DNA of 64,000 nt, taken from Bacillota bacterium (lineage in GTDB: Bacteria > Bacillota_A > Clostridia > Lachnospirales > Lachnospiraceae). Location of the stretch: the NCBI GenBank assembly GCA_023443625.1, contig JAEZTQ010000001.1, positions 1 to 64,000 of the forward strand, written 5' to 3'. How positions within the stretch are numbered: the stretch's first letter is position 1; each line of letters opens with the position of its first letter. Below, piece by piece: positions 14,640 to 39,626 of the stretch. The position numbers were made by a program, and so were the translations under genes. The notes below the pieces were generated by a model that did not search any database, had not been told where the DNA came from, and saw nothing but the letters and a program-made list of their open reading frames with translations.

Positions 14640-14771
14640 AATAAAGAGTCGACAATCCGGACTCTTTGCCCAGACGGTCGACTCTTATTTTTGACAAGCG
14701 AATTGGCTTTCCAATTCATCTTGTATGTTATACTTCATGTGGTTTATTCCACTTCCGTCAGTTGTATAACC
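14640..14771 (-). ncRNA. ZTP (pfl) riboswitch controlling purH
   Basis: The minus-strand leader has the hallmarks of the pfl RNA, which binds ZTP/ZMP. P1 is GTTATAC/GTATAAC. After the first P1 strand comes ACTGACGGAAG, then P2 GTGG-aataaa-CCAC. A linker leads to the 3' domain with the highly conserved CCGTCTGGGCA. A 10-bp stem AAGAGTCGAC/GTCGACTCTT (14644-14653 with 14677-14686) is followed by a U-rich run, so P3 may double as the expression-platform terminator. ZMP is the PurH substrate, which fits its place before this gene. Confidence 0.88.
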
Positions 14772-14780
14772 TATGTGCAA

Positions 14781-23381: not shown

Positions 23382-25271
23382 TCATTCAACATATGAAGCC
23401 ACAGCCACATAATTCTCTAGATAGTCCTCCAGTTTACGCTCTTCCCGAATCAACTGATCATTAATTTCACTCAGTTTAGCATAATCACAGGCAATTTCTG
23501 AGTTTTCCATCAACGCCTTTATTCTTTCAATCTCCCTTTCCGTCTCTTCTACCATCATTTCTATCTTTCTCATTGACTGCTTCTTTCTATCCAGAGCTTT
23601 TCTATCCCACTCCTTTCCAGTAGGAACTACTTTTGGACCATTTGTCTGATCTACATATTTAGTGGGAGCTTGCTCTCTGTCAATATATTCCTGATAACCA
23701 AAAGGGTAATAACTCACCCTATCTTTTTCAAATACCAGAAGGGAATCTGCTATTTTTTCTACGAAATACCGGTCATGGGATACGAACAGAACTGTACCTT
23801 CATAGTTCATGAGCAGAGTCTCCAGAGCTTCTTTCCCAACGATGTCCATGTGATTTGTCGGCTCATCCAGGATAAGAAGATTGGGTCTTTTCTTCAAACT
23901 TTTAGCAAGACTCAACCGAACCCTTTCTCCTCCTGACAGCTGACAAACCTTTTTATATACCGTATCCTGCGTAAATAAGAAGCATCCAAGAGCTGAACGA
24001 GCCTCCGACAAAAACATGTCCGGGAATTCATCGCAAAAATCCTCTAGTACAGTCCTGTCGCTCTCATCCTGGACAAGCTGTTGGTCAAAATACCCCGGAT
24101 CGATTTGAAATCCATAGGAAAATGACCCCTCCAGCTCATTAACCTGCCTCACAAGTGTCTTCAGAAGCGTCGATTTTCCCGCTCCGTTTTCACCGATCAC
24201 TGCAAGTCTCTGCCCCTTCTTTAGTTCAAAACTCACTTCACATAGGGGCTTGTCATAACCAATAACAAGTCGGTTTACCTTGAGAACCTCCTGCCCTCCC
24301 ACTCTTAGGGGCTTAAATTCTGCACGAAAGGTCTTAAGGTCGTATTTTTCCGGTGCTGGGACAAGGTCCATGTGTTCGATCTGCTTCAGTTTAGATTTGG
24401 TCATAGCAACCTTAGTTGGATGATGCTTATACTTCTCGATTAATGTCATGAGCCTTGCGATTTCCTTCTGCTGCAATTGATAATCCTTCTGCTGCTTATC
24501 CCAGTTTAATTGCTTCTGTTTTACAAAAGCTGAATAATTGCCTTGATATCGAGTCATTTTCCTATGTTCGATTTCATAAGTTACATCTGCTATCTTATCT
24601 AGAAACATTCTGTCATGGGAAATGATAACCACAGCCTTGGGATACTGCTTTAAATATCCTTCAAGCCATTCAATGGTGGGCAGATCCAGATGATTAGTAG
24701 GTTCATCCAATAGCAGAATATCGGGCTTACTTAACAGCAGTCGAATGAACGCTAGCTTCGTTCTCTGCCCGCCAGAAAAGTTCTTGATGGGACGTTTTAG
24801 ATCTGTCAGAGCAAATCCAAATTTGGTAACAATAGTTTCTATTTCCCATTGATAAGTATAACCTCCCGAGTTCTCAAAAAACTCCAGTGTTTTTGAATAA
24901 CTCTCCAACACTTCCTTAGATTGGTCTGTTTCCATTTGAATACAAAGCTGTTCCAGCTTTACCTTCCATTCAAGCAAAGTTGCAAAGGCCTTTAAAAGCT
25001 CTTCTTCTGCAGTTAAATTCTCATTCTCAAAGCTGATCTGCTGTAGGAACCCAATGGTTATATTACTTGCCTTGCTGATCCAGCTACTTTCATCACTGTC
25101 TAGATTATCCAGTGGAAGCATCCCGGCAATCAGCTTAAACAAAGTGGTCTTTCCACAGCCGTTTCGACCGACAACTGCGATTTTCTCTGTATTTCTTATT
25201 TCAAAATTAACATGATCAAGTATGGTATCAGATGCATATTTCACAAGGCCCTTATTTATTTGATAAATCAT
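23382..25271 (-). CDS. ABC-F family ATPase (YdiF-like or ribosome protection)
   Basis: A 629-residue soluble protein with two ABC ATPase domains and no membrane helices. Domain 1 has VGRNGCGKTT, NFSGGQRTKLAFI and LLLDEPTNHLD. Domain 2 has IGENGAGKSTL, QLSGGERVRLSLA and LLILDEPTNHMD. Between them lies the Lys/Gln-rich linker typical of ABC-F factors, and a C-terminal coiled coil spans about 545-625. ABC-F proteins act in the ribosomal E site as translation factors or antibiotic-protection proteins. The ATG at 25271 has GGAAAG nine bases upstream. The leader carries a mini-ORF and two terminators, a layout typical of inducible resistance. Confidence 0.88.
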   Translation of the reverse strand: MIYQINKGLVKYASDTILDHVNFEIRNTEKIAVVGRNGCGKTTLFKLIAGMLPLDNLDSDESSWISKASNITIGFLQQISFENENLTAEEELLKAFATLLEWKVKLEQLCIQMETDQSKEVLESYSKTLEFFENSGGYTYQWEIETIVTKFGFALTDLKRPIKNFSGGQRTKLAFIRLLLSKPDILLLDEPTNHLDLPTIEWLEGYLKQYPKAVVIISHDRMFLDKIADVTYEIEHRKMTRYQGNYSAFVKQKQLNWDKQQKDYQLQQKEIARLMTLIEKYKHHPTKVAMTKSKLKQIEHMDLVPAPEKYDLKTFRAEFKPLRVGGQEVLKVNRLVIGYDKPLCEVSFELKKGQRLAVIGENGAGKSTLLKTLVRQVNELEGSFSYGFQIDPGYFDQQLVQDESDRTVLEDFCDEFPDMFLSEARSALGCFLFTQDTVYKKVCQLSGGERVRLSLAKSLKKRPNLLILDEPTNHMDIVGKEALETLLMNYEGTVLFVSHDRYFVEKIADSLLVFEKDRVSYYPFGYQEYIDREQAPTKYVDQTNGPKVVPTGKEWDRKALDRKKQSMRKIEMMVEETEREIERIKALMENSEIACDYAKLSEINDQLIREERKLEDYLENYVAVASYVE

Positions 25272-25341
25272 GGATATCATCTTTCCTTTCGCTTAAAATC
25301 TCTTGGTTAATAGTAAATATTAAGTCGGCTTTTAAAAGCGC

Positions 25342-25789: not shown

Positions 25790-27460
25790 TTATAAACTTT
25801 TAATTTGAATTTTAATTAATCTTAATTTAAGACGTTCCGCCTCATCATATAGAGCTAACATATCCTTTTTGAACTGGGGATAATTCGTCTTACATTCCTC
25901 TATGTTACCTCTCATATAGAGTGGTTCAAAATATTCACCCATTCGATCTGCCAATTTATCTTTTAATGCCTCTATTTCATCAGTTATTGTCCCCAAATCA
26001 CCTACGGTTGACTTCATTCGATAATATAAATGAATAAAATCCCAAAAGTTTAAATCTTTTACAGTAATATCTTTTTTATTATGAAAATAATCTCTTAAAA
26101 ATTGGAAAATTACTCTTACATAAGGATCTCTAAACTCATAATTATAATATTCCTTATAATCCATACTATCTTCCAGCAATCCTTCTTCTTTTAATTGGTG
26201 GAAAATTGGTGTATTATAAAAAATTCTTAATGCATTAATGTAATCATCAAAATGAAAGCCCCTATGTTTCACTAGAAATTCGTAATTTGCCTTTAATCTT
26301 GCAGCATCGGAATGGGGATTCATCATAATAAACCCAAAAATGGGATCAATTCCGCACATCTTAAATATTCTTAATGCCTCCTCATTATCTTTCACCCTGG
26401 CTCTTTTATTATAGTATATCAGGTCCTCATCATTTCCTGCCTCAAGCCCGATTAAAACCACCCTAAAACCTGCTTCGTACATCAATTTTATGATTTCAAT
26501 ATCTTCTGGTATATCTTTAAAGGATTCCGCCCTAATATAACCTCTAAATCCAAACCTAACAGGATATTCCAGTAATGCCAGGCATAATTGTTTTAATCTT
26601 TCTTTACCAACATCTCCAGGATCCTCCATACTGCAATCCTTTAACGCAAAAAATTTCACACCCTTTTCTTCATATATATGAATGATTTCATTTGCAATAT
26701 CTTGCGGGCTTCTACCTGACCATTTCAGATAATGATTGGATATTCTACAAAAACTACAATTACCCATACAGCCATGAGAGCCACAAAGATAGGCCGTCAT
26801 ACCATGTTCAAATTTGAGATAACTTCGATCTGCCCAGGGTAATAGATTAATATCAGTATTACAAAAAACTTTTCCTTCTCTAATATTCTGCCCTACGATA
26901 TTTTGGCTATCTCCTATAATTTTCTCTATTGTAAATCCTTTTTCCATACCATTAATAACCTCTAAGAAAGGATATTCCGGATATCCTAGAAGTATAAAAT
27001 CTAATTCCTTGCAATCATCTAAAATAGGATTAAATGCTTCTGTAGCAAACCTTCCACTCATTCCTATAATACTATCTTCTTTTATCTGCTTTACTTTTTT
27101 TGCTACAATATATGCTGCTTCTCTGCTATTATTATCTCCATACAAAAGGATTACATCAGCATCTAAATTAACTATATTAAATGACTCTTCACATTTTAAG
27201 CAGTTGATATAATCTAGCTGCACAGGAATTCTATTTCTTTTGATAAATGCATATACTCTGCCAATATCATTATTGTCGATATTCTCATAATCATTATCAA
27301 AATCTTCTTTATACTGAACCTTTTCATAATATAAATTTATAATTTGTGCTACCATACTTATCTCCTCAATGTTTACTAATTCTTCAGCTATTATTCCTTT
27401 TATTTCTTCATAGGATATTTTCTTATCTACTAGGTCTGACAAGTGAAATTGCTTTCTCAT
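25790..27460 (-). CDS. B12-binding-type radical SAM enzyme
   Basis: A 556-residue class-B-like (BchE-type) radical SAM protein. The N-terminal half (about 60-190) looks like a cobalamin-binding Rossmann domain (ADVILLYGDNNS, then DFILLGYPEYP). The radical SAM core starts with the cluster motif HGCMGNCSFC (CxxxCxxC), followed by FALKDCSMEDP and VVLIGLEAGNDED. A helical C-terminus completes it. Such enzymes methylate, rearrange or oxidise unactivated carbons. It is last in the cluster, 10 bases after the PIG-L gene, and lacks a clear ribosome site, so translation may be coupled. Confidence 0.82.
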   Translation of the reverse strand: MRKQFHLSDLVDKKISYEEIKGIIAEELVNIEEISMVAQIINLYYEKVQYKEDFDNDYENIDNNDIGRVYAFIKRNRIPVQLDYINCLKCEESFNIVNLDADVILLYGDNNSREAAYIVAKKVKQIKEDSIIGMSGRFATEAFNPILDDCKELDFILLGYPEYPFLEVINGMEKGFTIEKIIGDSQNIVGQNIREGKVFCNTDINLLPWADRSYLKFEHGMTAYLCGSHGCMGNCSFCRISNHYLKWSGRSPQDIANEIIHIYEEKGVKFFALKDCSMEDPGDVGKERLKQLCLALLEYPVRFGFRGYIRAESFKDIPEDIEIIKLMYEAGFRVVLIGLEAGNDEDLIYYNKRARVKDNEEALRIFKMCGIDPIFGFIMMNPHSDAARLKANYEFLVKHRGFHFDDYINALRIFYNTPIFHQLKEEGLLEDSMDYKEYYNYEFRDPYVRVIFQFLRDYFHNKKDITVKDLNFWDFIHLYYRMKSTVGDLGTITDEIEALKDKLADRMGEYFEPLYMRGNIEECKTNYPQFKKDMLALYDEAERLKLRLIKIQIKSL

Positions 27461-27470
27461 TGATGGGCAT

Positions 27471-28190
27471 TTAAAAAATACTAATCAATTCATCTACTAA
27501 ACTTAAGAAAAATTTCTTTTCACCAAAATGAAAAGCCTCTGCTTGCTTTATAGCTTTTAAATGCATACTTTTCCCTCTATAATTGCCCAAAGCTTCTGTT
27601 ATTTCCCTTATATGCATAAAATTAAGCTGACTTTTGTATTGTTCTAATATTTTCATTTTATCACTGAACTCTGTAGTTATATTAATCAACAAATTTGCAT
27701 ATAAGGGACTCATTACTTCATATAGGGCAACAAATACCTCATATTCCTTCATAGGCTTTAATGCTTTTTGTAAAAAGTAAGTCGTATATTGATGATCTAT
27801 GTGTTGGTCTAATAACCATGGTGTAAAAATAATCTCCGGTTGAAAATCCTCAATACATTCTTTTATAGTCTGTAGGGCATCCGTAAGATATAAATGGGAG
27901 TCCTCATGTCCTAAAAAAATCTGTTCCAGTTTATATTTTTCCCAAGCCCCTTTAGCTTCTTCCATTCTTAAGGTAATATCTCCATCAAAAACACCATATC
28001 GGCCATCTGTCATATAAATAATCTTTACCTCGGCCCCTTCCTGTAAGTATTTTAGGATTGTACCGCCACAGCCAATTACTTCATCATCTTGATGTGGAGA
28101 TAATACAAGTATCTTTTTGGCTGGAACTAATGCACCAATTTTTGATTGTATCTGACTGATATTTTTTATAAGTAATTTCTCATTCTCCAT
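27471..28190 (-). CDS. PIG-L family N-deacetylase
   Basis: A 239-residue zinc hydrolase of the LmbE/PIG-L family, which removes N-acetyl groups from GlcNAc-type sugars. The zinc motif is LSPHQDDEVIGCGGT near residues 29-43, and the third ligand is in LDQHIDHQYT. BtrD/NeoL-like members deacetylate 2'-N-acetylparomamine in aminoglycoside pathways. The listed start is the ATG at 28190, five bases after the upstream radical SAM stop, so the two are translationally coupled. Its presence hints that the cluster product contains an amino sugar. Confidence 0.85.
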   Translation of the reverse strand: MENEKLLIKNISQIQSKIGALVPAKKILVLSPHQDDEVIGCGGTILKYLQEGAEVKIIYMTDGRYGVFDGDITLRMEEAKGAWEKYKLEQIFLGHEDSHLYLTDALQTIKECIEDFQPEIIFTPWLLDQHIDHQYTTYFLQKALKPMKEYEVFVALYEVMSPLYANLLINITTEFSDKMKILEQYKSQLNFMHIREITEALGNYRGKSMHLKAIKQAEAFHFGEKKFFLSLVDELISIF

Positions 28191-28195
28191 AAAAT

Positions 28196-29182
28196 TCACC
28201 ACTTTTCTTTATCATTCATGTGATCTTTTATTTTCTTTACGACTTCACAGTTGGTATAAGAACAACTAGATGTTAATTCACAATTACTTATCTTCTCTCG
28301 TACTTTCCTTCTTGTCTCTAATATTTTCTCTATCCCATCCTGCTCAATATGTCCTAAGGTAAGATGTTCACCATCTTTAATATATACGCAGGAGGTAGCA
28401 TAGCCTTGGCAATTTATGAATAATGCATTTTCCAGCCATACACAATATCCCGTCTTTCCCCCATTTAGCTTCATGTATTGTTCCATCTTCGTAAAAAAAT
28501 GCTCTATTGTGGGGTTTACATGAATAATTCTCTGCCATCTGTAATAATTTCTTCTAAGGAGGAGTTGTTCCTGCTTCGTTAAATACTCTCTACTTTCCTT
28601 CTCTGTATAATACTTACTATATTCCTTTGACTCGTTTAAGAATTGAATTGCTATCCCGCCATCCAGTTCTAACTCTTGATAAAGTTCAAATATATTATCA
28701 AGTTGTGATGCTGTGCTTTTTAAAATGGTGACTGAAAAACCTACGACTGGTATTTCGAGTCCCCTTTCCTTCTTTTTCTCCATAAGCAGCTTAATACCCT
28801 CTAATATTTTATCTAAGTTACCACCTCTGATTTTTTTAAAATCCTCAGGACTTAATGTTTCAATAGAAATATTCAGGCTATGAAGACCGCTGTCTATAAT
28901 CTTGTCAACATTGTTTGCTGTTAATAAACTTCCATTGGATATAATACATACTTGAATATTTTTATTTCTTGCATATTGAATCATGTCAAATAATTGTGGA
29001 TGCAGGAAGGGTTCACCTTCTCCTTGAAGCTCTATGCATTCAATACCTGCAATTTGATCAATAATTGCCTTATATGTATTAAAATCCAAATCCATTTGTT
29101 TCATATGTCTTCCAGAACAAAACGCACAGGTAAAATTACATCTTGTCGTTGGTTCTATTTGTATTAATTTAATTTGATTCAT
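28196..29182 (-). CDS. Radical SAM/SPASM-type enzyme
   Basis: A 328-residue radical SAM protein. The SAM-cluster motif TTRCNFTCAFC lies at about residues 12-22, followed by ECIELQGEGEPFLHP and ISNGSLLT. The C-terminal region has several Cys (YCVWLEN, INCQGYATSCVY, NCELTSSCSYTNCE), indicating one or two auxiliary Fe-S clusters of twitch/SPASM type. BtrN, the 2-deoxystreptamine dehydrogenase, shares this layout, as do peptide-modifying enzymes, so the reaction is not assigned. Its ATG lies inside the end of the carrier protein gene (14-base overlap). Confidence 0.82.
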   Translation of the reverse strand: MNQIKLIQIEPTTRCNFTCAFCSGRHMKQMDLDFNTYKAIIDQIAGIECIELQGEGEPFLHPQLFDMIQYARNKNIQVCIISNGSLLTANNVDKIIDSGLHSLNISIETLSPEDFKKIRGGNLDKILEGIKLLMEKKKERGLEIPVVGFSVTILKSTASQLDNIFELYQELELDGGIAIQFLNESKEYSKYYTEKESREYLTKQEQLLLRRNYYRWQRIIHVNPTIEHFFTKMEQYMKLNGGKTGYCVWLENALFINCQGYATSCVYIKDGEHLTLGHIEQDGIEKILETRRKVREKISNCELTSSCSYTNCEVVKKIKDHMNDKEKW

Positions 29183-29441
29183 TGGCTTCGGCCTGTTTTT
29201 TCTCTACATAATCAGCTATGGTGTCTAAGGTTCTAAAGAGTTCAACCGACAAATCTTCATCAGCAATTTCAATATCAAATATTGTCTCCAATCTTACTAC
29301 AAGCTCAATAGCTACAATGGAATTCAAATTAAAGGCTTCAATAATGTCCGTATCTTCTGTAATACCATGAAAATTAACATCTTCTCTTAATACTGCACAT
29401 ATAGCTTTTTTTACTTTTTCATAAATTTCATTTCTTTCCAT
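29169..29441 (-). CDS. Acyl/peptidyl carrier protein 2
   Basis: A 90-residue four-helix carrier protein. The phosphopantetheine site is the Ser in FNLNSIVAIELVVRLE (the family DSL becomes NSI). The acidic helix II and the ending DTIADYV are typical. AAAGGAG precedes the ATG. It overlaps the radical SAM gene by 14 bases, so the SAM enzyme may act on the carrier-bound substrate. Confidence 0.85.
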   Translation of the reverse strand: MERNEIYEKVKKAICAVLREDVNFHGITEDTDIIEAFNLNSIVAIELVVRLETIFDIEIADEDLSVELFRTLDTIADYVEKKQAEANESN

Positions 29442-29523
29442 TATCCTTATCTCCTTTTATATGATTATTTTTATTCAGTTGCAAAACTTTATTAATTATG
29501 TAATTCATGAGTTTCGCAATCAC

Positions 29524-30438
29524 CTATATAATTACTTTATGTGTTTTCACATATTCTACATATTCTTCGATATCCCTAATTTCTCCAGAAAGTAATTTAC
29601 CCAAATGATATATCTTCTCTTCAGGATGACATTCATAAAATTTACCAATGGAGGCTTCTAATGCTTCATTAAAATTCATGCGAGCGTGCATCATATGGTA
29701 ATTATGTCCCTGCTCCAGATAAATAAACTTAACATTTTCTTTGTATAGCCTAAAACCTAATTCAAAATCCTCAGCTCCCCACTCCTTTCCAAAACATAAA
29801 TTAAACCCTCCCACCTTATCTAAAAGGGATTTTTCACAGGACATATTTGCACCTGTACAAGATAGCCATTGAAAACCATATATATTCTTTTGAAAGGTAC
29901 TTAGAATAATCCTTTCCATCAAAGTTATCTTACTTTGCTTGTGGATTTTCAATATGTCTCTAATATCTTCCTTCTTTATACAGTATTGCTTAACAATTTC
30001 TAAGCTGTCTCTCCCCTGATGTTCATACATCTCCCCTGTGGAAGGATTTTTAAAGAACTTTAAATAGGGTAAATTGTAAATATTACCATGAGCTACACAG
30101 CTTTCCTCATTATGGGCATTCACATGTGCCTCTACAAATGTTGGAGCCACTATTAGATCGTCATCACAAAAAATAATAATATTCCCACTTGCCATTTCTA
30201 TTCCTTTATTTCTGGCAGCAGAACGTCCTTCATTATCCGTCTTGATATACCGTATGGGAAGACCTTGCTCTAAGATCTTTAACATATCTTTGGTCCCATC
30301 TAAGGAGCCATCATCCACGATAATAATTTCAAAATGATTAAGATCCATTGTCTGATACCTAAAGGATTCCAAAGTAAGTTCCAGTCGTTCTTTCTTATTA
30401 AAGGTAGGCATTACAATACTGGCTATAGTTTTATCCAT
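29524..30438 (-). CDS. Family 2 glycosyltransferase
   Basis: A 304-residue GT-A fold enzyme. SIVMPTFNKKERLELTL begins the nucleotide-binding fold, IIVDDGSLDGTKD follows, and IIFCDDDLIVAP contains the metal-binding DxD equivalent. The acceptor-side stretch GAEDFELGFRLYKE matches the GT2 ED motif. It transfers a sugar from a nucleotide sugar to an unknown acceptor, presumably the cluster product. It lies 14 bases after the second permease gene. Confidence 0.85.
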   Translation of the reverse strand: MDKTIASIVMPTFNKKERLELTLESFRYQTMDLNHFEIIIVDDGSLDGTKDMLKILEQGLPIRYIKTDNEGRSAARNKGIEMASGNIIIFCDDDLIVAPTFVEAHVNAHNEESCVAHGNIYNLPYLKFFKNPSTGEMYEHQGRDSLEIVKQYCIKKEDIRDILKIHKQSKITLMERIILSTFQKNIYGFQWLSCTGANMSCEKSLLDKVGGFNLCFGKEWGAEDFELGFRLYKENVKFIYLEQGHNYHMMHARMNFNEALEASIGKFYECHPEEKIYHLGKLLSGEIRDIEEYVEYVKTHKVII

Positions 30439-30452
30439 CTACTCATCTCTTT

Positions 30453-31265
30453 CTAACTGCTAGCGCTTGTATAATTTCTAATTGCTTTTTTCCATATAAG
30501 CCTTACAAGAAGTATACATAAAACCGGTGCTGTAATTCCCCATAGGATTGCTCTATAATCTAGCCTTCCTATAACAAATAAAAATGAATAATTACTAATA
30601 AGAAATATAGGAAATAAAAAGGTTCCAATCCCTTGTATCCACCTTTTATAAATCTTCATGGGCATATTATTCAAATACCATAGGGCATCTGCTATTTCAT
30701 GCACTGCTGTTCCTTTAATTGTCCAAAAACATAGCAATTCCGGTATTAGGGTTACACAATAAGCAATAATTACACCAGTAAAAATAAATCCTAAATAACC
30801 AAACACAGTTACAGCAGTGAGTGGAATACCTGCCCTTTGCCATCCTATACATACACAGATAATTCCTGCTATAATATTAGGTATTGCTGCTGCAATTTCA
30901 ATATTGCGTAGTGTTACCATAAACTGAAGTGAAACAGGCTTGGTTATAAACATGTCTAAAGAACCTTCTCTTATATATTCCTGTATCTTTGCGAAATTAA
31001 AGAAGAAAAGTGACACATGAATTCCTGACATAATAATAAAGGTTCCTGAATATATCAAGATATCATCCGGTGTTAAGCCCTTTAAAGTTGTTCCCGCATT
31101 ATATACCACCAAAACATATAAAAGCTTTGTAAAAAGAAAAGCAAATTCTACAGCAAGACTCATAAAGAAATTGGCACGATATATCAATAGTATAACAAAG
31201 CAATTTTTTACAAATTTGTAATATATGTATATGTGTCGTTTTATTTCCCTTAATATATTACTCAT
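30453..31265 (-). CDS. ABC-2 type permease (PF06182/DUF990-like), second subunit
   Basis: A 270-residue integral membrane protein with six predicted helices. It matches the ABC-2 permease class of DUF990-like proteins, which pair with a second permease and one ATPase. Family-like stretches are EGSLDMFITKPVSLQF and a conserved IPNIIAG turn. It begins 3 bases after the first permease stops. It probably exports the cluster product. Confidence 0.82.
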   Translation of the reverse strand: MSNILREIKRHIYIYYKFVKNCFVILLIYRANFFMSLAVEFAFLFTKLLYVLVVYNAGTTLKGLTPDDILIYSGTFIIMSGIHVSLFFFNFAKIQEYIREGSLDMFITKPVSLQFMVTLRNIEIAAAIPNIIAGIICVCIGWQRAGIPLTAVTVFGYLGFIFTGVIIAYCVTLIPELLCFWTIKGTAVHEIADALWYLNNMPMKIYKRWIQGIGTFLFPIFLISNYSFLFVIGRLDYRAILWGITAPVLCILLVRLIWKKAIRNYTSASS

Positions 31266-31268
31266 ACA

Positions 31269-32063
31269 TCATCCCCCCACTGCTTCATACTTCTTAAGGC
31301 CTATTTTCCAGAGTATTTGAAGTAAAAGACTTAATAATATGATCCATACCACTTGAATAATCATACTTGGGAGAATTTCTTCTACTTTAATATTTCCATT
31401 CAAAATATTAATCTGAAAATAAATCGTGTATTGAAAGGGTAAAAACCTCAATATATTTGTGATATGTTCACCAAACACATCCAGTGGAAATACACCTCCA
31501 CTCACTATATTTATAACCAAACCTAAAATTAAAAAGGCTCCCCATGCTTCAGTAATCCAAAAAGCTATAACACTTACAACAAACCCCAAAACAATATTAA
31601 TAATAATGCCCAATAGTACGGCCACAGCAAAATATAATAATCTTATGGGTTCCACTCTAAAGAAGGATTTCATGCTTGCAATCACTAAAATGATTGAAAA
31701 AATAATTGTAAAAATGAAAAACTGTACTGATTTTTTTCCCAAAAAGCAACAGATCTGATATTTAAAATAGCCCATTGGCTTTACAATATATTTATTCAAT
31801 CCTCCATTTTTAATATCATTGGCTAACTCCCACTCGCACCCAGCTGTAACTAATTTTGATATGATACCCGCTAATATTGTATACATAATCATGGAGGAAT
31901 ACGTATATCCATAGACAATACCTGTCTTTGAGCTTTCAAACAATGCTGTCCAAATAAAATATTGTGTTACCGTTGGAACAATAGTGCTGATAATCCCCAA
32001 AATAAAATCAAATCTGTATTCCAGTGAATTTTGTAATCCAATTTTAAAGGATTTAATATACAT
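31269..32063 (-). CDS. ABC-2 type permease (PF06182/DUF990-like), first subunit
   Basis: A 264-residue membrane protein with six helices and the same family signature (NGGLNKYIVKPMGYFKYQ). AAGGGG lies 6 bases before the ATG at 32063; a GTG five codons upstream lies in that site and is not used. It follows the ATPase gene by 15 bases. Confidence 0.82.
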   Translation of the reverse strand: MYIKSFKIGLQNSLEYRFDFILGIISTIVPTVTQYFIWTALFESSKTGIVYGYTYSSMIMYTILAGIISKLVTAGCEWELANDIKNGGLNKYIVKPMGYFKYQICCFLGKKSVQFFIFTIIFSIILVIASMKSFFRVEPIRLLYFAVAVLLGIIINIVLGFVVSVIAFWITEAWGAFLILGLVINIVSGGVFPLDVFGEHITNILRFLPFQYTIYFQINILNGNIKVEEILPSMIIQVVWIILLSLLLQILWKIGLKKYEAVGG

Positions 32064-32078
32064 TTGTGTCCCCTTCAC

Positions 32079-33062
32079 TTATGCCTCTCCTTTCTTGTAA
32101 AGCAAAGCAACCCCTTCTTCTATTGGAATTTCCTCTACATTGAAATCGATGACAGGTAAGTTTTGGAGCAATCTCATAGCACAATTTTTAACCTCATCCT
32201 TTGCGACCTGTAATGTAAAATCCAGATTATCCTGTTTTACAATTAGTCCGTATTCCGCAATTTTTTCCACGGATACTTCATATTCCAGCTTAATTTTTAG
32301 TAGTTTATTATGGCCAATAAGGCTATTTATCTCTTTTAACTCTCCATCATAAACTATAGAGCCCTGGTTTAAGATAATTGCTCTCTTACACAGGTTTTCT
32401 ATATCATTCATATAATGACTTGTAAGAATAATTGTAGTTTTAAATTCTTTATTATACCCACTAATAAAGTCCCTAATATTTCTTTGGGAGATGATATCAA
32501 GTCCTATGGTTGGTTCATCTAAAAACAGCACCTTTGGTTTATGTATCAGGGAAGCAATAAGCTCCATCTTCATCCTCTCTCCCAAGGACAGCTTGCGAAC
32601 CTGAATTTTTAGTAAATCCTTTACCTCTAAGAGCTCCGTTAAATATCCAACGATTTCGTCATAATCCTTTTTTTCAATTTCATAAATACATCTATTTAAC
32701 TCTAAAGATTCATTTGCAGGAAGATCCCACCACAGTTGATTTTTTTGTCCCATAACTATGGAGAACTGTCTCTTGAAATCCTTTTTCCTTTCCCAGGGTT
32801 TATATCCCATTACACGAATATCACCTTGGGTTGGATATAAAATTCCAGAAAGCATTTTAAGTGTCGTTGTCTTTCCAGCCCCATTTGCACCTAAAAATCC
32901 AATTATCTCCCCTTCTTCAATACGAAAGGAAATGTCATTGACTGCATTTCTTACCAGCTTTTTTCTGGAAAATAAACTTTTCACAGAATTTTTAAGACCT
33001 ACTTCTTTTTCGTAATAATCAAATTGCTTACTTAAATTCTTAACTGTAATTATGTCTGCCAT
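32079..33062 (-). CDS. ABC exporter ATP-binding protein
   Basis: A 327-residue ATPase. Walker A is GANGAGKTTTLKMLSG, the signature is LSLGERMKMELI, and Walker B is VLFLDEPTIGLD. The C-terminal extension of about 80 residues is typical of ATPases paired with DUF990-type permeases. GGGAG precedes two adjacent ATGs; the second (33062) is better spaced. It is first of the three exporter genes. Confidence 0.88.
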   Translation of the reverse strand: MADIITVKNLSKQFDYYEKEVGLKNSVKSLFSRKKLVRNAVNDISFRIEEGEIIGFLGANGAGKTTTLKMLSGILYPTQGDIRVMGYKPWERKKDFKRQFSIVMGQKNQLWWDLPANESLELNRCIYEIEKKDYDEIVGYLTELLEVKDLLKIQVRKLSLGERMKMELIASLIHKPKVLFLDEPTIGLDIISQRNIRDFISGYNKEFKTTIILTSHYMNDIENLCKRAIILNQGSIVYDGELKEINSLIGHNKLLKIKLEYEVSVEKIAEYGLIVKQDNLDFTLQVAKDEVKNCAMRLLQNLPVIDFNVEEIPIEEGVALLYKKGEA

Positions 33063-33072
33063 CATTAACTCC

Positions 33073-34059
33073 CTAATTAATCTTTACAAGTATTTTAATT
33101 AAATTCTCAATATGTTCTATACCCTGTTCCTCTAATATAATTATTTGCTCTATTCTTTTTGCAATACGTTGCTGCAAAGCCAAGTCCATATATATACTAA
33201 GCTTAAATATCAAATTTGATATTTTCTCCCATTGTCTTTCTATTTCCCCATAGATTAATACACACTGGTGCGCTTCATCACAAGGCCACTTTTTCATTAC
33301 TTCTTCCAAAAACATCCTCATATTTCGTCTTGTTTTATATAAACCGCCTCCCCTATTCATCTCATAAAAGTATTTATAGATTTCCTTTTGGTTCTGGCTT
33401 TTTTCAAAGCTTAATTTAAAATGCCTCATACCAGTAATTCCATAATACTCCTCTTGGGCTTTACTAATTTTTCTTATATTATCAACAACTTGTAAAAGCC
33501 CCTTAACCACTAACTCTTTCTCTGTATATTTCCACCCAATCTGATTATCTAGAGTGTACTGTATCTCTATGATGCCATCTTTTTGCATCATCTGATTCAT
33601 ATTAGCTTTTGAAACCATGATTTTTTCATTACTAAATATGGTTAAAGCAGTATCGCTATCTTCTAGAATTACAGCCATTACCCATAGATGACTTTTCTGG
33701 TAATTATATGCTTCTGGTAAGAAGAACTCATCAAGCCATAGCATTGGGATTACCTTGGCTTCTAACAAGTCAGAGATACGATTTAAAGCAAGCTCCTTAC
33801 AGGTAAATTGTTCCTTCTGCAGAGGTTTTATAAAATATTCGTTCAAACGAGAAAATAAACTTTCAAATTCTTCACTTCGGCCATGTACCACTGATGGTAT
33901 GCCAGTTGTTATGGTTGTAAAATAAAAGCCCATAACACCTACAATCCCACCTAACCAAAACTCTTCATACCAAATCTTATATGCACTAAGATATTTCTTA
34001 AGATTAGCAAGAAAACAAAAATCACCTTTTTGATCAGCATTACCTAAGAGATTATCCAT
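33073..34059 (-). CDS. BtrH_N/DUF4872-like acyltransferase, second copy
   Basis: A 328-residue protein. The N-terminus has Cys15 in GDFCFLANLKKYL, then an EEFWLGGIVGVMGFYF stretch like BtrH (acyl-ACP:amine transferase of butirosin synthesis). A conserved His (KSHLWVMAV) follows, but the expected Asp after it is not obvious. The C-terminal half resembles DUF4872 (YYGITGMRHFKLSF, then NRGGGLYKTRRNMRMFLEE). Two in-frame ATGs follow AGAAAGG; the one at 34059 suits that upstream-pairing site. It starts the second sub-operon, just after the tandem repeats. Confidence 0.6.
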   Translation of the reverse strand: MDNLLGNADQKGDFCFLANLKKYLSAYKIWYEEFWLGGIVGVMGFYFTTITTGIPSVVHGRSEEFESLFSRLNEYFIKPLQKEQFTCKELALNRISDLLEAKVIPMLWLDEFFLPEAYNYQKSHLWVMAVILEDSDTALTIFSNEKIMVSKANMNQMMQKDGIIEIQYTLDNQIGWKYTEKELVVKGLLQVVDNIRKISKAQEEYYGITGMRHFKLSFEKSQNQKEIYKYFYEMNRGGGLYKTRRNMRMFLEEVMKKWPCDEAHQCVLIYGEIERQWEKISNLIFKLSIYMDLALQQRIAKRIEQIIILEEQGIEHIENLIKILVKIN

Positions 34060-34088
34060 AATAATAACCATGCCTTTCTCAATACTTG

Positions 34089-34353
34089 CCTTCCCTTTGA
34101 GTTAGTTTGTGCCGAGGATTACGCAGGCACAAACTTCTAAGTGTGAAAATTGCTTTTATTTTCACACTAACAGTACATTCCTTCCCTTTGAGTTAGTTTG
34201 TGCTGAGGATTACGCAGGCACAAACTTCTAAGTGTGAAAATTGTTTTATTTTCACACTAACAGTACATTCCTTCCCTTTGAGTTAGTTTGTGCTGAGGAT
34301 TACGCAGGCATAAACTTCTAAGTGTGAATTATGCTTTTTAATAATTCACACTA
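34089..34353. repeat. Tandem repeat, three copies of about 90 bases, each with two hairpins
   Basis: Copies begin at 34089, 34180 and 34270 (period 91 and 90) and are nearly identical; the last is cut short. Each starts CCTTCCC, has a GTTTGTGC...GCACAAAC stem and an AGTGTGAA...TTCACACT stem, and ends near CTAACAGTACAT. They fill the space between the ligase gene and the second BtrH-like gene. A shorter form of the same repeat is found at 49131-49262. Confidence 0.88.
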
Positions 34354-34368
34354 TCCCCATTATAATAA

Positions 34369-35787
34369 TTACATAACCTTTGATTTTCCTAATCCAGACT
34401 TTTCTATTCCCTTGACCCAGGTAATAATGCTTGGTACTTTATAAGCAGCCAAATATTTTCTACAATGGGTTATTACTTCACTTATGGTTAAGCTATCCTT
34501 TTTCCTAACTATAATTGCTTCAACCTCTTCACCGAACTTCTCACTGGCATTTCCTTTGACGTAAACATCCAGAATATCCGGATGCTGTCTCAAACAATTT
34601 TCAACTTCTATAGGATTTACTTTAAGTCCTGTAATATTAATAAGACGGTCAGCTCTTCCTTTAATCCATAGGTATCCATCCTCTAACTCACATAAATCCT
34701 GTGTCAAATACCCTTTAGGATCAAAGGGTTCTTCTCCAATATAACCAATTGCCATTCCTTTACTGATTACCATTAGGGTTGACTCTTCTAATCCATCAGC
34801 TGTAACTAATTTAAGTCCAACATTTTTTAATGGTTTTCCTACATATTTTATTGCTTTCTCTATTTCATTACATAAGTTAACAGCTATCGTACCTGTCTCT
34901 GTACTGCCATATTCTTGATGTATTACTTTATTTGTTAAGTCATAAAAATCTCTGAAGCATTTCTCTTCTAATCTACTGCCGGCGCATACGCACAAACGTA
35001 AACTGCTACAATCATAGCTAGCTGACTTTAGCTGGCCGCAGATTAATTTATACATATATGGCACGCCATGAAAAACAGTGATTTTCTCCTCTTGTATAAT
35101 ACGCAGAACCCTGGCAGGTACAAAATTACTCATAAGAAATATGGTAGCACCACAATTTAAAGCACTCAGCATACAGGAATCAAAAGCATAGGAATGAAAG
35201 AAGGGAACTACTCCAATAAATCTATCCTGATTACTAAAATTTAATGTACTAGAATAATTTATTAGAGCCTCTTTCAAATTGGTATGGGAGTTCATTACAC
35301 CCTTAGGTTTTCCTGTAGAACCTGAGGTATATAGTATGGTAGATATTTGTTTCTCATCTAAAATCATGTGCTGTAAATAGTGTTCAAAACCCTTAGCTTG
35401 TTCATATTTCAAGTACTCATTATTTACTATGATTGTTATAAGAGACTTATTAAAATCAAATAATTTCTCTTGTAAACTATCCGTAATAATGAATTCCACA
35501 TGATTTTCTTTTATGATGTCTAATATTTCATGCCTGAATTTGGTATCAACTAAAATGGCTGTAGCTCCTAAGAGATTAATTGCAAAATATGATACAATAA
35601 ACTCCGGACTATTGTTAAGCCAAAGGAGTACCTTTTTGCCTGCTCCACAGCCCTTATTTAATATGTATCCGGCAAAATTCTGAATATATTCCTTTAGCAT
35701 TCCGTAGGTTATTTCTATATCTGATGTTTTCAAAGCTACCCACATATTATCTATATTAGGATTATTGAATATGACATCACTTATCAT
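34369..35787 (-). CDS. AMP-forming adenylating ligase
   Basis: A 472-residue ANL-superfamily enzyme that activates a carboxylic or amino acid as an adenylate and loads it on a carrier protein. Motifs are TILYTSGSTGKPKGV (A3), EYGSTETGT (A5), GRADRLINITGLKVNP (A8), and the A10 lysine in EKSGLGKSKVM at the very end. It is stand-alone, without a fused carrier domain, and follows the carrier protein gene by 25 bases, so carrier protein 1 is the likely partner. The substrate cannot be read with confidence from the pocket. Confidence 0.88.
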   Translation of the reverse strand: MISDVIFNNPNIDNMWVALKTSDIEITYGMLKEYIQNFAGYILNKGCGAGKKVLLWLNNSPEFIVSYFAINLLGATAILVDTKFRHEILDIIKENHVEFIITDSLQEKLFDFNKSLITIIVNNEYLKYEQAKGFEHYLQHMILDEKQISTILYTSGSTGKPKGVMNSHTNLKEALINYSSTLNFSNQDRFIGVVPFFHSYAFDSCMLSALNCGATIFLMSNFVPARVLRIIQEEKITVFHGVPYMYKLICGQLKSASYDCSSLRLCVCAGSRLEEKCFRDFYDLTNKVIHQEYGSTETGTIAVNLCNEIEKAIKYVGKPLKNVGLKLVTADGLEESTLMVISKGMAIGYIGEEPFDPKGYLTQDLCELEDGYLWIKGRADRLINITGLKVNPIEVENCLRQHPDILDVYVKGNASEKFGEEVEAIIVRKKDSLTISEVITHCRKYLAAYKVPSIITWVKGIEKSGLGKSKVM

Positions 35788-35812
35788 GTCTTCTTTCCTT
35801 ATTTAAAATGAA

Positions 35813-36061
35813 TTAACAAGCTACTTCTAAAACATAAGCTGCGATCTTATCAATGGAACTTAGTTTTTCATACTCCCAATAATCATCTTCAATTACAATC
35901 TTAAATTCTTTCTCTACTTCCGTTAGAAGCTGTAAAAATACTAGAGAGCTTACTTGTAAGATTCCAGTAACAAATGCTTCATTTATTACTAGCTCCTCTG
36001 CCTCTGCTATATTATTCTTTAAAATATCGATGATACGTTCTATTACCACCTCTTTACTCAT
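35813..36061 (-). CDS. Acyl/peptidyl carrier protein 1
   Basis: An 82-residue carrier protein. The attachment Ser is in GILQVSSLVFLQLLTEVE (SSL in place of DSL), and DKIAAYVLEVA forms the last helix. GGAGGT lies 6 bases before the ATG at 36061 and inside the end of the previous gene, so expression is tightly coupled to the UbiV-like protein. Confidence 0.8.
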   Translation of the reverse strand: MSKEVVIERIIDILKNNIAEAEELVINEAFVTGILQVSSLVFLQLLTEVEKEFKIVIEDDYWEYEKLSSIDKIAAYVLEVAC

Positions 36062-36063
36062 AT

Positions 36064-36894
36064 TCATACCTCCAATAAATTTTTTATCAATGGAAGGGAA
36101 GCTTCATTAATGTATGAAAAAATCACCTTATCATAACCAGTCCAGGAAAGGGTTGGTTCAATTCTTTTCATTAAGACTGTACCTTCAAAATATAAATCAG
36201 GATACTTTTCCATTTGTTCATGATTTGCAGGTCGAATAATAATTTCCTTGTTTAAACAGAGATGGCTGCAATTATAATTCGCAACTGTAATACCTTTATC
36301 TTTTGCTATGGGGCATGCCCGGGAGACAGCGGCAATTGTATTATCAATAAAGCCAATAATTTCAAAATTCTCTTCTTTGATTTTTTTAAGGCTTTCTTCT
36401 TCCTTACTAAATATTGAGGTTTCAATACCTTTAATATTCCAATCTTTAAAATACTCCATCTTTTCTTGTTGATAAAAATTATTTTGAGCAAAATAGGATT
36501 TTGCCTCAGGGTCCTCTTGGGCCACGTGTATTTCTCCCCAGATCCAACGATTTATACTTTTTGTAAGTAATCGTCCCAAATAAATTGAAGCATTCTTATT
36601 TTTAGCTTGCTTTAATTTATATAATAAGCCCAGATCATTAATACTAACTGATATCCCTTGGTCTAATAATTCTAGTACATTGTTATATTCATAATCCATC
36701 CTTGCCATATTTACTTTTGGACTAATATAGTGAAAGTTCAATTTGCTATCATGGGCAATGTCTCTTAACTCATTTATATTGGGTATACGCTTATAACAAT
36801 TATAATCTCCAAATAGGATCCATTTTGCTGGGATATCCTGAGACAATATATCCTTTAATTGTTCAGTGCTGCTTATATATATTCCAATATCCAT
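36064..36894 (-). CDS. UbiV-like U32 family iron-sulfur protein
   Basis: A 276-residue protein I match to UbiV. After FGDYNC (Cys about 33) comes the barrel stretch SINDLGLLYKL. Further on is SRACPIAKDKG, then NYNCSHLC. In UbiV the four 4Fe-4S ligands sit in LGEAVC, SARC and CETCC contexts, so all four cysteines appear to be kept. UbiV works with UbiU in oxygen-independent hydroxylation of ubiquinone precursors. Here it is next to a U32 partner and a carrier protein, so I infer an anaerobic hydroxylation or related step on a carrier-bound substrate. Confidence 0.68.
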   Translation of the reverse strand: MDIGIYISSTEQLKDILSQDIPAKWILFGDYNCYKRIPNINELRDIAHDSKLNFHYISPKVNMARMDYEYNNVLELLDQGISVSINDLGLLYKLKQAKNKNASIYLGRLLTKSINRWIWGEIHVAQEDPEAKSYFAQNNFYQQEKMEYFKDWNIKGIETSIFSKEEESLKKIKEENFEIIGFIDNTIAAVSRACPIAKDKGITVANYNCSHLCLNKEIIIRPANHEQMEKYPDLYFEGTVLMKRIEPTLSWTGYDKVIFSYINEASLPLIKNLLEV

Positions 36895-36908
36895 TTACAC
36901 TTAGCTCC

Positions 36909-37886
36909 TTAAATCCTATCTAATCCTATGTAAGTTTTTGATATAGAACTAGATATATATTTGCATTGTTGTTTTTGGCAATAGGATCTTTTCCACCAGC
37001 TTGGCAATATCTCATCCCTTAATGCATCATACTCTTCTTTGCTCATTTTCTTGTTACGAAGTGCTTTTAATAATTTCGAGTAAATGGAGGTGATCTCATA
37101 ATTCAACTTCATGTCCAAATCTCTTCCGACTAACTTCGTCGCATATAGGCCCGTTTCATTTAATGTATGCATTGAACAGACACTGCAGGCTAAGGAAGCA
37201 TTGACATATTGACAGGCATGGGTGAATTCACCATCTTCAATCACCTTGTAAACATTTCTACAGGGAATACCTAGCAAATCCGCAATACCTTCACCAAAAT
37301 TATGTTTTAGATTACAATCATCATAAAAGGAGCAGCCATAATGTCCAAAAATCTCAATCTCTAGCTTGGTTCCTTCTGTAAGTTCTTTGATTTCGTCTAA
37401 GGTCAATTGATAGGATAAAACAATTCTGTTAACTCCCAACTCTTCGAAAAACTGTATCTGCTCTTTATTAATAATTTCAAAAAATGTGCTTGCTGCAATA
37501 TGTGTTTTTATACCTTGTTTCCTCAAAAACTGAACAGCACCAATATCCGCCACAATAATAGAATCTACTCCTATATCAATTGCATTGGTAACATACTTGT
37601 AAAATTCCTTTAGATATCCCTTGGAGCCATCGGGATTATTCGCCAGAAAGGGGAAATTTGCTGTAAACATAACTTGGACATCTTTGCCATGGGCATAGTT
37701 TACAACATCCTTAAGTTCATCAAAATCAGGACAATTAATTTCACCTTTTGGATTATATCGCCCTCGTCCATTAAAGCTTAAGCTTTTAAAGGTAGTGCTA
37801 TCCGCACCTAGATAAATCTCTTCTCCTCCAGCTTCAATCTGCTTGACCGTTGTTTCATAACCGTTAACAGGTACTAGCAATTTCAT
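36909..37886 (-). CDS. UbiU-like U32 family iron-sulfur protein
   Basis: A 325-residue U32-family protein. It starts MKLLVPVNGYETTVKQIEAGGEEIYLGA (split: LLVPVNGYET, then GGEEIYLGAD), a classic U32 opening, and continues SIIVADIGAVQFL and IHAAST-like HIAASTFFEI. The cysteine region reads EIFGHYGCSFYDDC, then GIPCR and SLACSVC, suggesting a 4Fe-4S site. U32 members include UbiU, TrhP and RlhA (hydroxylases or hydroxylation helpers) and older putative peptidases. The gene is 14 bases before the UbiV-like partner, which supports a UbiU-UbiV-type complex. Confidence 0.75.
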   Translation of the reverse strand: MKLLVPVNGYETTVKQIEAGGEEIYLGADSTTFKSLSFNGRGRYNPKGEINCPDFDELKDVVNYAHGKDVQVMFTANFPFLANNPDGSKGYLKEFYKYVTNAIDIGVDSIIVADIGAVQFLRKQGIKTHIAASTFFEIINKEQIQFFEELGVNRIVLSYQLTLDEIKELTEGTKLEIEIFGHYGCSFYDDCNLKHNFGEGIADLLGIPCRNVYKVIEDGEFTHACQYVNASLACSVCSMHTLNETGLYATKLVGRDLDMKLNYEITSIYSKLLKALRNKKMSKEEYDALRDEILPSWWKRSYCQKQQCKYISSSISKTYIGLDRI

Positions 37887-37913
37887 GTAACCTTCTCCTT
37901 TATATAAACTTCA

Positions 37914-39485
37914 CTATTCATACTTTCCAAGGGAAATTGCGAATAAAACAATATTAGGACAAATGGGTAGTTTTATAGCTTTAAGAGCTTTTCTTTCAAT
38001 TCTATATAGCATTGCATATATCCCAACATCCCAAGCATGTTCTTCGATTTCATCAATAAATCCACATCGGCCATTCCATATCATTGTATTTTTAATAAAT
38101 GGATTAGGTATTGCTGAATCAGGAACTTCTATTGAAACCATAATGCTTGTATCATCTTTATATTGTATTTCTATCTCCTCTTCGAAGGAGGATAAATCTC
38201 CATACCCCATAAGCATAATACAGTCATAATCATTGGAAGCTACAGCTATAGTTTGTCCATAACATTTTATACTGTCATTTTGCTTTCCCTTAATAGGTTC
38301 ATGATAGAACTTCATTCTTCTGAGTTCCCATATTTCTTTGTTAACTGTTTCATCAACATAAAAGAAATACCTCATGCCATCTATATTGGCAACGGATTGT
38401 TTTTCATTATAAATTCCAAAGCTTTGATTATTGTAATAATTCTTTATTGGTACAAAAGTAATTTGATCCGGTTCTTTAATATCAACGGCTTCCTTATTCT
38501 TTATATAGATTTCTTTTTTTTCTTTCCAGTTCTCTATGAGCTGAACTGTATTTTCCTCTAATGATGCTGTTCTTTCCAATCTATCTATAACTTTTTTTAC
38601 TAAATTATCTGCATTGGTTAGGAAGTATCCTTTTAATAACATACCTCGAATCTGATTCCATTCTAATGTAATTTTCTCCATGTTCTCTTTTACTCTTCTA
38701 ATGTTATAATCTTCTTTTTGCTCTAGAATAAAATCAATTAATCTCACAAAATTAGCACGGTCCGCCATGATTCCACCTAAATTAAATATGATAGGTTCAA
38801 TCCATATGCCTCCATGGGTATTATCAATTTCTTTTTTTAAATCAAAGCCCTGTCTCATTGCATCTGCTAGACGCATTATATCTTGTATATCCTTCAATTC
38901 CTGGGTATTTCTTTTTAACTTATTAATTGAATAGTTGAATACTTCTTCTACATCAATTTCCTTATCATAATCAGGCAAACATCTGATGGTCCAGTATTTA
39001 CCATTGTTGCCATTTAGGAGATCGTCAAAGGATAGGGGGACATTTTGCTTTTTAAGCATACAATCCACGCAATAAATACACTCCTTTTCTCTATCTACTC
39101 CTACTGCCAACATAGCGTGAGGTAAATTGTTTTCAAATTTCTTATAGTGTTCATTCCAAGGAAAATAATAAGTACTGATAAAGATCATAACTGGATTGCC
39201 CTGGTCTATCTCTTCTTCTAATATGTCTAAGAGATTTTCATTTACTTTAACTTCTTTTTTAATAATCTCTATGCCATGATATCTTTTCAGATAGTTCATG
39301 TTTAAAACAGCACGACTTTTTATTCTTTCCCCTATTTTTTCTGCGGAAGCTTCTTCCCTATACTCAAACCCCCATGAACCTGCAAATAACATTTCATATC
39401 TTCTATTATGTACACTTGCATAGCAAGCCACTGCTTGATCATAGCAAGGCATATCTCCTAGATTTTTAATGGGTATATCTATCAT
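37914..39485 (-). CDS. BtrH-like acyltransferase with extra C-terminal domain
   Basis: A 523-residue protein, first gene of the cluster. Residues about 10-170 form a BtrH_N/papain-like fold with Cys14 (MPCYDQAVAC), a later His (NLPHAMLAVGVD) and Asp (IYCVDCM), consistent with a catalytic triad. BtrH moves an acyl group from a carrier protein onto the amine of ribostamycin. A DUF4872-like helical region (about 190-320, HGGIWIEPIIFNLGG) follows, then a beta-rich domain of unknown role (about 340-520). GGGAG precedes adjacent ATGs. The product amine acceptor is unknown. Confidence 0.65.
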   Translation of the reverse strand: MIDIPIKNLGDMPCYDQAVACYASVHNRRYEMLFAGSWGFEYREEASAEKIGERIKSRAVLNMNYLKRYHGIEIIKKEVKVNENLLDILEEEIDQGNPVMIFISTYYFPWNEHYKKFENNLPHAMLAVGVDREKECIYCVDCMLKKQNVPLSFDDLLNGNNGKYWTIRCLPDYDKEIDVEEVFNYSINKLKRNTQELKDIQDIMRLADAMRQGFDLKKEIDNTHGGIWIEPIIFNLGGIMADRANFVRLIDFILEQKEDYNIRRVKENMEKITLEWNQIRGMLLKGYFLTNADNLVKKVIDRLERTASLEENTVQLIENWKEKKEIYIKNKEAVDIKEPDQITFVPIKNYYNNQSFGIYNEKQSVANIDGMRYFFYVDETVNKEIWELRRMKFYHEPIKGKQNDSIKCYGQTIAVASNDYDCIMLMGYGDLSSFEEEIEIQYKDDTSIMVSIEVPDSAIPNPFIKNTMIWNGRCGFIDEIEEHAWDVGIYAMLYRIERKALKAIKLPICPNIVLFAISLGKYE

Positions 39486-39626
39486 CATTCTCCCTCTCTA
39501 TTATATTAAAATTCAATCTCAGTAACGTACTAAGTATATACACTTACTTAGCTAAGGATATTACGGCTGGGACAACCTTAATATGTAATATAATGTGTAA
39601 TTTATCCAGTTGGTAATTAACTTTAT

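Follow-up and report, generated by a model that had tools for sequence, protein, structure and literature searches.

The window, a stretch of 64,000 nucleotides from a probably anaerobic bacterium, contains a 14-gene cluster that we read, with a probability of about 0.6, as encoding non-canonical thiotemplated biosynthesis of an exported small molecule. Fourteen intact open reading frames, all on the minus strand, run tightly packed from 39488 to 25790 with intergenic spacing of -14 to +82 bp; the sole exception is a 297-bp gap between the ligase and BtrH332 genes. A previous sequence-only reading had described 14 closely spaced genes on one strand with one repeat-filled gap, and all of these were found; its start coordinate (25790) is correct, whereas its end (39485) stops 3 bases before the ORF begins at 39488. 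The features, in gene order, are:

37914..39488, minus strand: BtrH524, predicted papain-like acyl transferase acting on carrier proteins, of the CtaG/CcbD/AziU3 fold, whose beta-rich C-terminal part resembles AziU2 (PF14399 and fold matches)
36909..37886, minus strand: U, U32-family protein of 325 aa with seven conserved cysteines (PF01136, 110.8 bits)
36064..36894, minus strand: V, UbiV-like partner of U, 276 aa, cysteines 33, 194, 209 and 213 (TIM-barrel model)
35813..36067, minus strand: carrier protein 1, VSSL motif, Ser41 (PP-binding, 17.6 bits, below the cut-off of 20.8)
34369..35787, minus strand: stand-alone AMP-forming acyl ligase (PF00501, 218 bits, and motifs)
34089..34328, minus strand: palindrome-rich tandem repeat with a 90-bp unit present 2.6 times, separating the ligase and BtrH332 genes
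33073..34071, minus strand: BtrH332, second, weakly BtrH-like protein (PF14399, below cut-off)
32079..33065, minus strand: ABC exporter ATPase (PF00005, 93.3 bits)
31269..32078, minus strand: ABC-2 permease 1 (PF06182, 81.9 bits)
30453..31265, minus strand: ABC-2 permease 2 (PF06182, 138.6 bits)
29524..30438, minus strand: GT2 glycosyltransferase (PF00535, 108.5 bits)
29169..29441, minus strand: carrier protein 2, LNSI motif, Ser41 (PP-binding, 35.3 bits, above cut-off)
28196..29182, minus strand: radical SAM/SPASM enzyme, CX3CX2C at residue 15 (PF04055, 73.3 bits; SPASM, 23.9 bits)
27471..28202, minus strand: PIG-L deacetylase (PF02585, 87.9 bits)
25790..27460, minus strand: BchE-like radical SAM enzyme, CX3CX2C at residue 231 (PF04055, 44.7 bits)

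Domain matches were thus found for the ligase, carriers, GT2, radical SAM pair, PIG-L and ABC-2 exporter that had been named from the letters, with carrier 1 under its cut-off. Motifs that we take to be catalytic are present in the ligase, the carriers, the radical SAM proteins, PIG-L, GT2 and the ATPase. As also claimed before, no NRPS or PKS module was detected: Pfam searches of the 14 proteins returned no condensation, ketosynthase or multidomain module. Neither a phosphopantetheinyl transferase nor a regulator is among the 14 genes. An ABC-F gene (23382-25280), considered as a self-resistance gene, was dropped from the cluster because it lies 509 bp away and has a G+C content of 0.409, against 0.308-0.359 in the 14 genes.

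From gene content, motifs, the fold kinship of BtrH524, cysteine patterns and the recurrent linkage of U/V pairs with genes of these kinds, all of them observed, we infer the reactions, their order, the substrate and the acceptor. The AMP-forming ligase would activate a carboxylic acid and load it onto carrier 1, and the U/V pair, by analogy with UbiU/UbiV, would hydroxylate the carrier-bound chain without O2, perhaps with prephenate as oxygen donor, an analogy taken from the literature. BtrH524 would then take the chain onto Cys15 and pass it to an amine, either of an amino sugar prepared by GT2 and PIG-L or of a group on carrier 2. The presence of PIG-L and GT2 makes an amino sugar a plausible acceptor. 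The two radical SAM enzymes may supply further modifications, and the ABC-2 transporter would export the product. More tentatively, at slightly less than even odds, we propose a recurrent and unrecognised clostridial strategy, in which pairs made of a U32 protein with seven cysteines and a UbiV-like protein would hydroxylate carrier-bound intermediates of thiotemplated natural-product pathways without O2, here together with a transferase fusing AziU3-like and AziU2-like parts. Strict anaerobes cannot depend on oxygenases, and how they oxidize natural-product scaffolds is poorly known. If U/V pairs do hydroxylate carrier-bound substrates, enzymes linked until now to quinone and RNA modification would become natural-product tailoring tools, and the pair could be used to spot clusters without NRPS/PKS modules. 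Among the papers listed in searches of the open-licence literature, we found neither a pathway with this gene set nor any natural-product cluster containing a U32 pair, which is no proof of absence.

The best solved relatives of the ligase are MenE, FadD13 and 4CL. An amino-acid substrate is not supported: in an alignment to EntF of E. coli, the FD residues of the two proteins do not line up, and the PFFHSYAF segment of the window's ligase is acyl-ligase-like. D-alanylation, which the sequence-only reading had given as an example of a known pathway to which the ligase and carriers might belong, is likewise not supported. Carrier 2 scored only 21.8 bits on the DltC model (cut-off 68), no DltA appears in the 25 of 109 ligase model matches listed, and no DltB- or DltD-type match is among those listed.

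The best NCBIfam models for two of the enzymes were matched below their cut-offs: exopolysaccharide EpsD for GT2 (150 bits, cut-off 370) and BshB1 for PIG-L (80.1 bits, cut-off 182.5), while the BchE-like enzyme reached 83.1 bits on the BchE model, far under 481. The EpsD match, together with PIG-L and the ABC-2 exporter, might be taken as a hint for cell-envelope decoration, in which an acylated amino sugar or glycan unit is exported but retained in the envelope rather than released as a diffusible product. However, the cluster has a single GT2, and no lipid-carrier transferase, polymerase or flippase is found among its 14 genes. Combined with the rarity of the proteins (9 BtrH524 and 23 V rows found, the window's own included), which better suits specialized metabolism, envelope decoration is unlikely.

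Similarly to UbiU and UbiV, U and V form an adjacent pair in which U is a U32 protein and V carries a similar cysteine motif. All seven cysteines of U are aligned in 36 of 40 rows. Three of them align with UbiU cysteines, the fourth UbiU cysteine falls in a different column, and four further conserved cysteines are found in U, which is far below the cut-off of the UbiU equivalog NF047963 (NCBIfam; 64.4 versus 440 bits). The V motif, CXnCX14CX3C, is of the same kind as the UbiV-type CXnCX12CX3C, but the spacing is not exact; in 20 rows three of its cysteines are invariant and one is conserved at at least 90 percent. Of the U32 pair claimed from the letters, then, only the 325-aa member is recognized by profiles: the 276-aa V of the window had no Pfam or NCBIfam match up to E 0.01, none of the 22 members of the V alignment, window's included, matched a U32 or UbiV profile in either database (other families appeared at chance level only), and no U32 profile of Pfam matched 9 distant V-like proteins. 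In profile comparisons V resembled U (E 0.0037, probability 9) and E. coli UbiV (E 0.016, probability 3) only weakly, and among its structural matches the U32 protein 5d88 ranked level with many unrelated barrels. The V sequence gave 0 matches to solved structures and none to plasmid sequences, and the 22-row alignment, searched against genome contigs, picked up 15 stretches with no confirmed relative. In a further difference from the UbiU/UbiV system, no UbiT-type match is among the 14 proteins. The earlier suggestion of a product made without oxygen is partly supported, by the U32 kinship and the cysteine motifs.

Only ubiquinone and RNA are named as substrates of characterized U32 oxidases in the available part of one review (PMC11574389), and 8 of 23 U/V loci in other Clostridia (L040, L042, L044, L048-L050, L052 and L053; labelled by reading) have ordinary surroundings, so that the pair alone is no proof of biosynthesis. 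Both points would fit an RNA- or quinone-modifying hydroxylase standing outside the pathway. This is quite unlikely given the U tree, in which the window's group (23 rows, weak support 80/83, possible long-branch attraction flagged) contains 0 of the 8 ordinary-locus pairs; among its 9 rows with known surroundings, assigned by hand, 8 are labelled biosynthetic (L038 loosely) and 1 is unclear. A chorismate mutase-DAHP synthase fusion lies near the U/V pair of L038, a hint only toward prephenate as donor.

BtrH524 (524 aa) exceeds the cut-off of the BtrH_N family PF14399 (36 versus 29.7 bits). Its predicted model (pLDDT 76.8) has the papain-like core and helical second half of the CtaG/BtrH/CcbD transferases, and its fold matches are CtaG, CcbD and AziU3/U2. 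C14, H123 and D141 (523-aa numbering) are invariant in 9 of 9 BtrH524 sequences, window's included, and constitute a putative catalytic triad, C15-H124-D142, whose equivalence to residues of CtaG is based solely on their order and spacing. This fold kinship supports the carrier-based pathway with BtrH-type acyl transfer proposed before. AziU3/AziU2 is reported to act in ring formation in azinomycin, by sulphate elimination. BtrH524 shows similarity to each of the two chains of that complex, two proteins there and one here, and could close a ring instead of forming an amide; this is very unlikely, since CtaG and CcbD, amide-forming according to the source text available, fit BtrH524 about as well, and no sulphotransferase match was found in the 14 proteins. 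The second BtrH_N-like protein claimed, BtrH332 (332 aa), fell short at 22.7 bits; hhalign related it weakly to the BtrH524 family (E 0.0016, probability 16), and against solved structures its sequence matched only 4 antibody chains (E 1.8-1.9).

Besides the AziU3/AziU2 and UbiU/UbiV systems, the closest described pathways are those of butirosin, the lincosamides and closthioamide. The butirosin pathway includes a PIG-L protein, radical SAM enzymes and a glycosyltransferase, and uses an ATP-grasp ligase and deoxystreptamine genes; the latter two have no counterpart in the domain matches of the 14 proteins, and the ligase here is AMP-forming. BtrH itself shares the BtrH_N domain and transfers an acyl group from a carrier to an aminoglycoside, as far as the available text goes (PMC10318531). 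In lincosamide biosynthesis (CcbD/LmbD), where CcbD matches BtrH524 in fold, condensation is a carrier-dependent amide bond formation to an amino sugar; unlike here, the pathway is from Streptomyces and joins proline or alkylproline to a thiooctose, and the part of the source available mentions no U32 pair (PMC12945683). Closthioamide biosynthesis in Ruminiclostridium cellulolyticum (CtaG, CtaI, CtaE/CtaH), whose CtaG has the BtrH524 fold, similarly uses discrete carriers and a predicted acetyl-CoA-synthetase-type loading enzyme. Only there are a thioamide synthetase (CtaC), an ATP-grasp enzyme (CtaD) and a transglutaminase (CtaJ) found, and a U32 pair, PIG-L and GT2 go unmentioned in the available text (PMC6772006).

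The sequence-only reading, partly supported overall, had set linkage of homologues against scattering. In the part of that check that was run, linkage survives: carrier, ligase or radical SAM genes accompany U/V pairs more often than they occur in controls, and some relatives of U, V and BtrH524, the only proteins searched, lie on contigs of equal size. Near relatives of U and V are found on contigs of 16,660, 22,174 and 113,854 bases, of which the 16,660- and 22,174-base contigs also have BtrH524. With the window queries, at least two of carrier, ligase, BtrH and radical SAM genes were present in 7 of 23 U/V loci and 0 of 20 controls (p = 0.0076), and at least one in 10 of 23 and 3 of 20 (p = 0.043); with extended queries on L036-L053 the corresponding counts were 4/18 versus 0/20 (p = 0.041) and 9/18 versus 4/20 (p = 0.054). 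Controls were 20 stretches at hand-chosen round positions, not random, in 7 of the genomes. ABC ATPase was kept out of the count because it is frequent in controls as well (6/20, against 12/23 U/V loci). Likely near-duplicates (L036/L037 and L039/L047) weaken these statistics, and some stretches are short (L046, 6.6 kb with a U fragment only; L048, 7.7 kb). L006, with a U32 protein in a genome without V match, was excluded, and the survey of surroundings leaves out G1066, G935:C158, G270, G362, G133, G056, G069 and G077. The window queries found no BtrH-like protein in the 23 loci; BtrH co-occurrence there comes from Pfam, one hhalign comparison and queries drawn from those loci.

A chance meeting of two independent units (BtrH524-U-V-carrier 1-ligase and BtrH332-exporter-GT2-carrier 2-radical SAM-PIG-L-radical SAM) would place the sole large gap at their junction, and the equal-sized contigs concern only U, V and BtrH524, all of the first unit, but it is very unlikely, as L002 and L004 have carrier, ABC ATPase and BtrH-like genes together with U/V, and in L036 the pair is accompanied by genes for a ligase, a radical SAM enzyme and an ABC ATPase. 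Elsewhere in the window the 30-base core of the 90-bp unit has no extra copy, even with as many as 3 mismatches allowed, and the 297-bp gap folds better than its shuffles (z = -4.4).

The 14 ORFs of the cluster, which we class as a non-canonical thiotemplated cluster, lie on the minus strand of the window from 39488 to 25790. Pfam cut-offs were exceeded by the 524-aa BtrH_N protein (BtrH524, a putative acyl transferase), the 325-aa Peptidase_U32 protein (U), the AMP-binding ligase, the second of two discrete carrier proteins (carrier 2), ABC_tran, two ABC2_membrane_6 proteins, GT2, PIG-L and two radical SAM proteins. Scores below cut-off were obtained for carrier 1 and the 332-aa BtrH-like protein. 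Motifs that we take to be those expected for activity were found in the cluster proteins, and Ser at position 41 is kept in both carriers. Because the best solved relatives of the ligase are MenE, FadD13 and 4CL, and the FD motif of EntF is not in register in the ligase–EntF alignment, the acid loaded by the ligase is more likely to be something other than an alpha-amino acid.

By sequence U belongs to the U32 proteins. Its partner V (276 aa) gave no domain match in the Pfam and family-model scan, and no sequence family was detectable for it. The predicted structure of V is a confident TIM barrel (pLDDT 87.9), for which the U32 protein 5d88 ranked 34th among solved structures, within a group of tied barrels. 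Four cysteines of V (Cys33, Cys194, Cys209 and Cys213) are arranged as in UbiV (CXnCX12CX3C; PMC6747719), except that V has X14 in place of X12. V can be aligned with E. coli UbiV over short stretches at Cys33 and at a DLG motif; the V–UbiV profile comparison is weak. In the U alignment, 36 of 40 rows keep all seven conserved cysteines, the exceptions being UbiU and the rows from loci L006, L038 and L045. UbiU and UbiV are described in PMC6747719 as a heterodimer with one [4Fe-4S] cluster per subunit; U and V adjoin in 21 of the 23 U/V loci fetched from other genomes, which fits a heterodimer. L004 has one ORF between them, and in L046 U remains as a fragment only. Prephenate may be the common oxygen donor of U32 oxidases (PMC11574389). 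In one locus a chorismate mutase-DAHP synthase fusion (L038:16815-17912) is separated from V by 6.5 kb, which at most hints that prephenate is supplied near U/V; the same stretch holds four CapK-like ORFs.

V was found in 8/391, 11/392 and 11/397 genomes sampled at class, order and family level, counts that include the centre genomes and come from overlapping draws; a narrower first V profile gave 2/397. Of 29 genomes sampled in the genus of one U/V genome, G002, V was found in G002 alone. Those relatives with U and V that bear a name belong to the Lachnospiraceae, which suggests an anaerobic clostridial host.

Of the four gene types carrier, ligase, BtrH and radical SAM, two or more were present in 7 of 23 U/V loci versus 0 of 20 control stretches (p = 0.0076, the 14 window proteins as queries); with these queries BtrH was found in 0/23 loci. 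Where the longest contig has the same length for two rows, we infer that both proteins lie on it; on this basis a U row is on the same contig for 9 of 22 non-self V rows and for 3 of 8 non-self BtrH524 rows. Searching genome contigs with U gave six loci, five of them with V. PF14399 had eight matches in these five U+V genomes, two within 10 kb of V (0.044 expected by our arithmetic); a third near V, below cut-off, was 13 kb away. By our reading, eight of the 23 loci have ordinary surroundings. Six of these (L040, L048-L050, L052, L053) form one fully supported group in the U tree, and none of the eight falls in the weakly supported 23-row group containing the window (80/83).

L001 encodes three carriers, an AMP ligase, one BtrH_N protein above and one below cut-off, a BtrH-like protein by eye, and two radical SAM proteins (one matched by a window protein, another by eye). 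L002 has a carrier, ligase, BtrH_N protein above cut-off, GT2 and ABC-2 exporter; L004 has two carriers, radical SAM proteins, an ABC ATPase and a BtrH-like protein with no Pfam match (hhalign E 2.2e-8). ABC ATPases and, by eye, CapK-like ligases occur in L003 and L005, as does 3-dehydroquinate synthase II (L005 by Pfam, L003 by eye). Near carriers, L001:11922-13043 and L004:12172-13026 are tRNA-synt_2b-like, each slightly below the Pfam cut-off, and are possibly amino acid:carrier ligases. A recombinase-like ORF (L002:17769-18869, by eye) adjoins the L002 U/V cluster, which, together with the single V-bearing genome among 29 of its genus, makes the cluster a possible mobile island. ORFs resembling an agr regulator, kinase and AgrB (by eye) lie near U/V in L003 and L005. 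In L036 and L037, two distinct U/V pairs share one cluster, where an AMP ligase and several radical SAM proteins of B12R-like type are also encoded. In L051, U and a 450-aa V-like partner are flanked by ORFs of 1506 and 3004 aa, which have ligase matches and are NRPS-like by size.

In the most economical scheme, every reaction of which is inferred, the ligase would activate an acid and load carrier 1, the U/V pair would then hydroxylate, and BtrH524 would transfer the product to an amine, either an amino sugar prepared by PIG-L and GT2 or an amine presented by carrier 2; radical SAM enzymes would tailor the product before export. The cluster resembles closthioamide and lincosamide condensation in its working but fits neither, and it shares parts with butirosin without fitting it. 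The combination of a U/V pair, a composite BtrH524 and a PIG-L/GT2/radical SAM set was not found among the matches listed from an open-licence literature library.

Intergenic spacing in the cluster is −14 to +82 bp, except for a 297-bp gap between the ligase and second BtrH-like genes, which contains:

34089-34328, tandem repeat, 2.6 copies of a 90-bp unit

Strong hairpins are predicted in this gap (z −4.4). Within the unit a GTTTGTGC/GCACAAAC hairpin is nested in a TTTTCACACT/AGTGTGAAAA palindrome, and no further copy of its core was found elsewhere in the window. The cluster's upstream neighbour is an alpha-xylosidase gene, and downstream, 509 bp away, is an ABC-F gene (23382-25280) with higher G+C than the cluster. 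The ribosomal-protection-like product of this ABC-F gene scored 620 bits with the OptrA model (cut-off 1450) and 448 bits with a generic model, above the cut-off of 380. Ten other window genes scanned belong to ordinary families or none, and a ZMP/ZTP riboswitch lies at 14661-14775.
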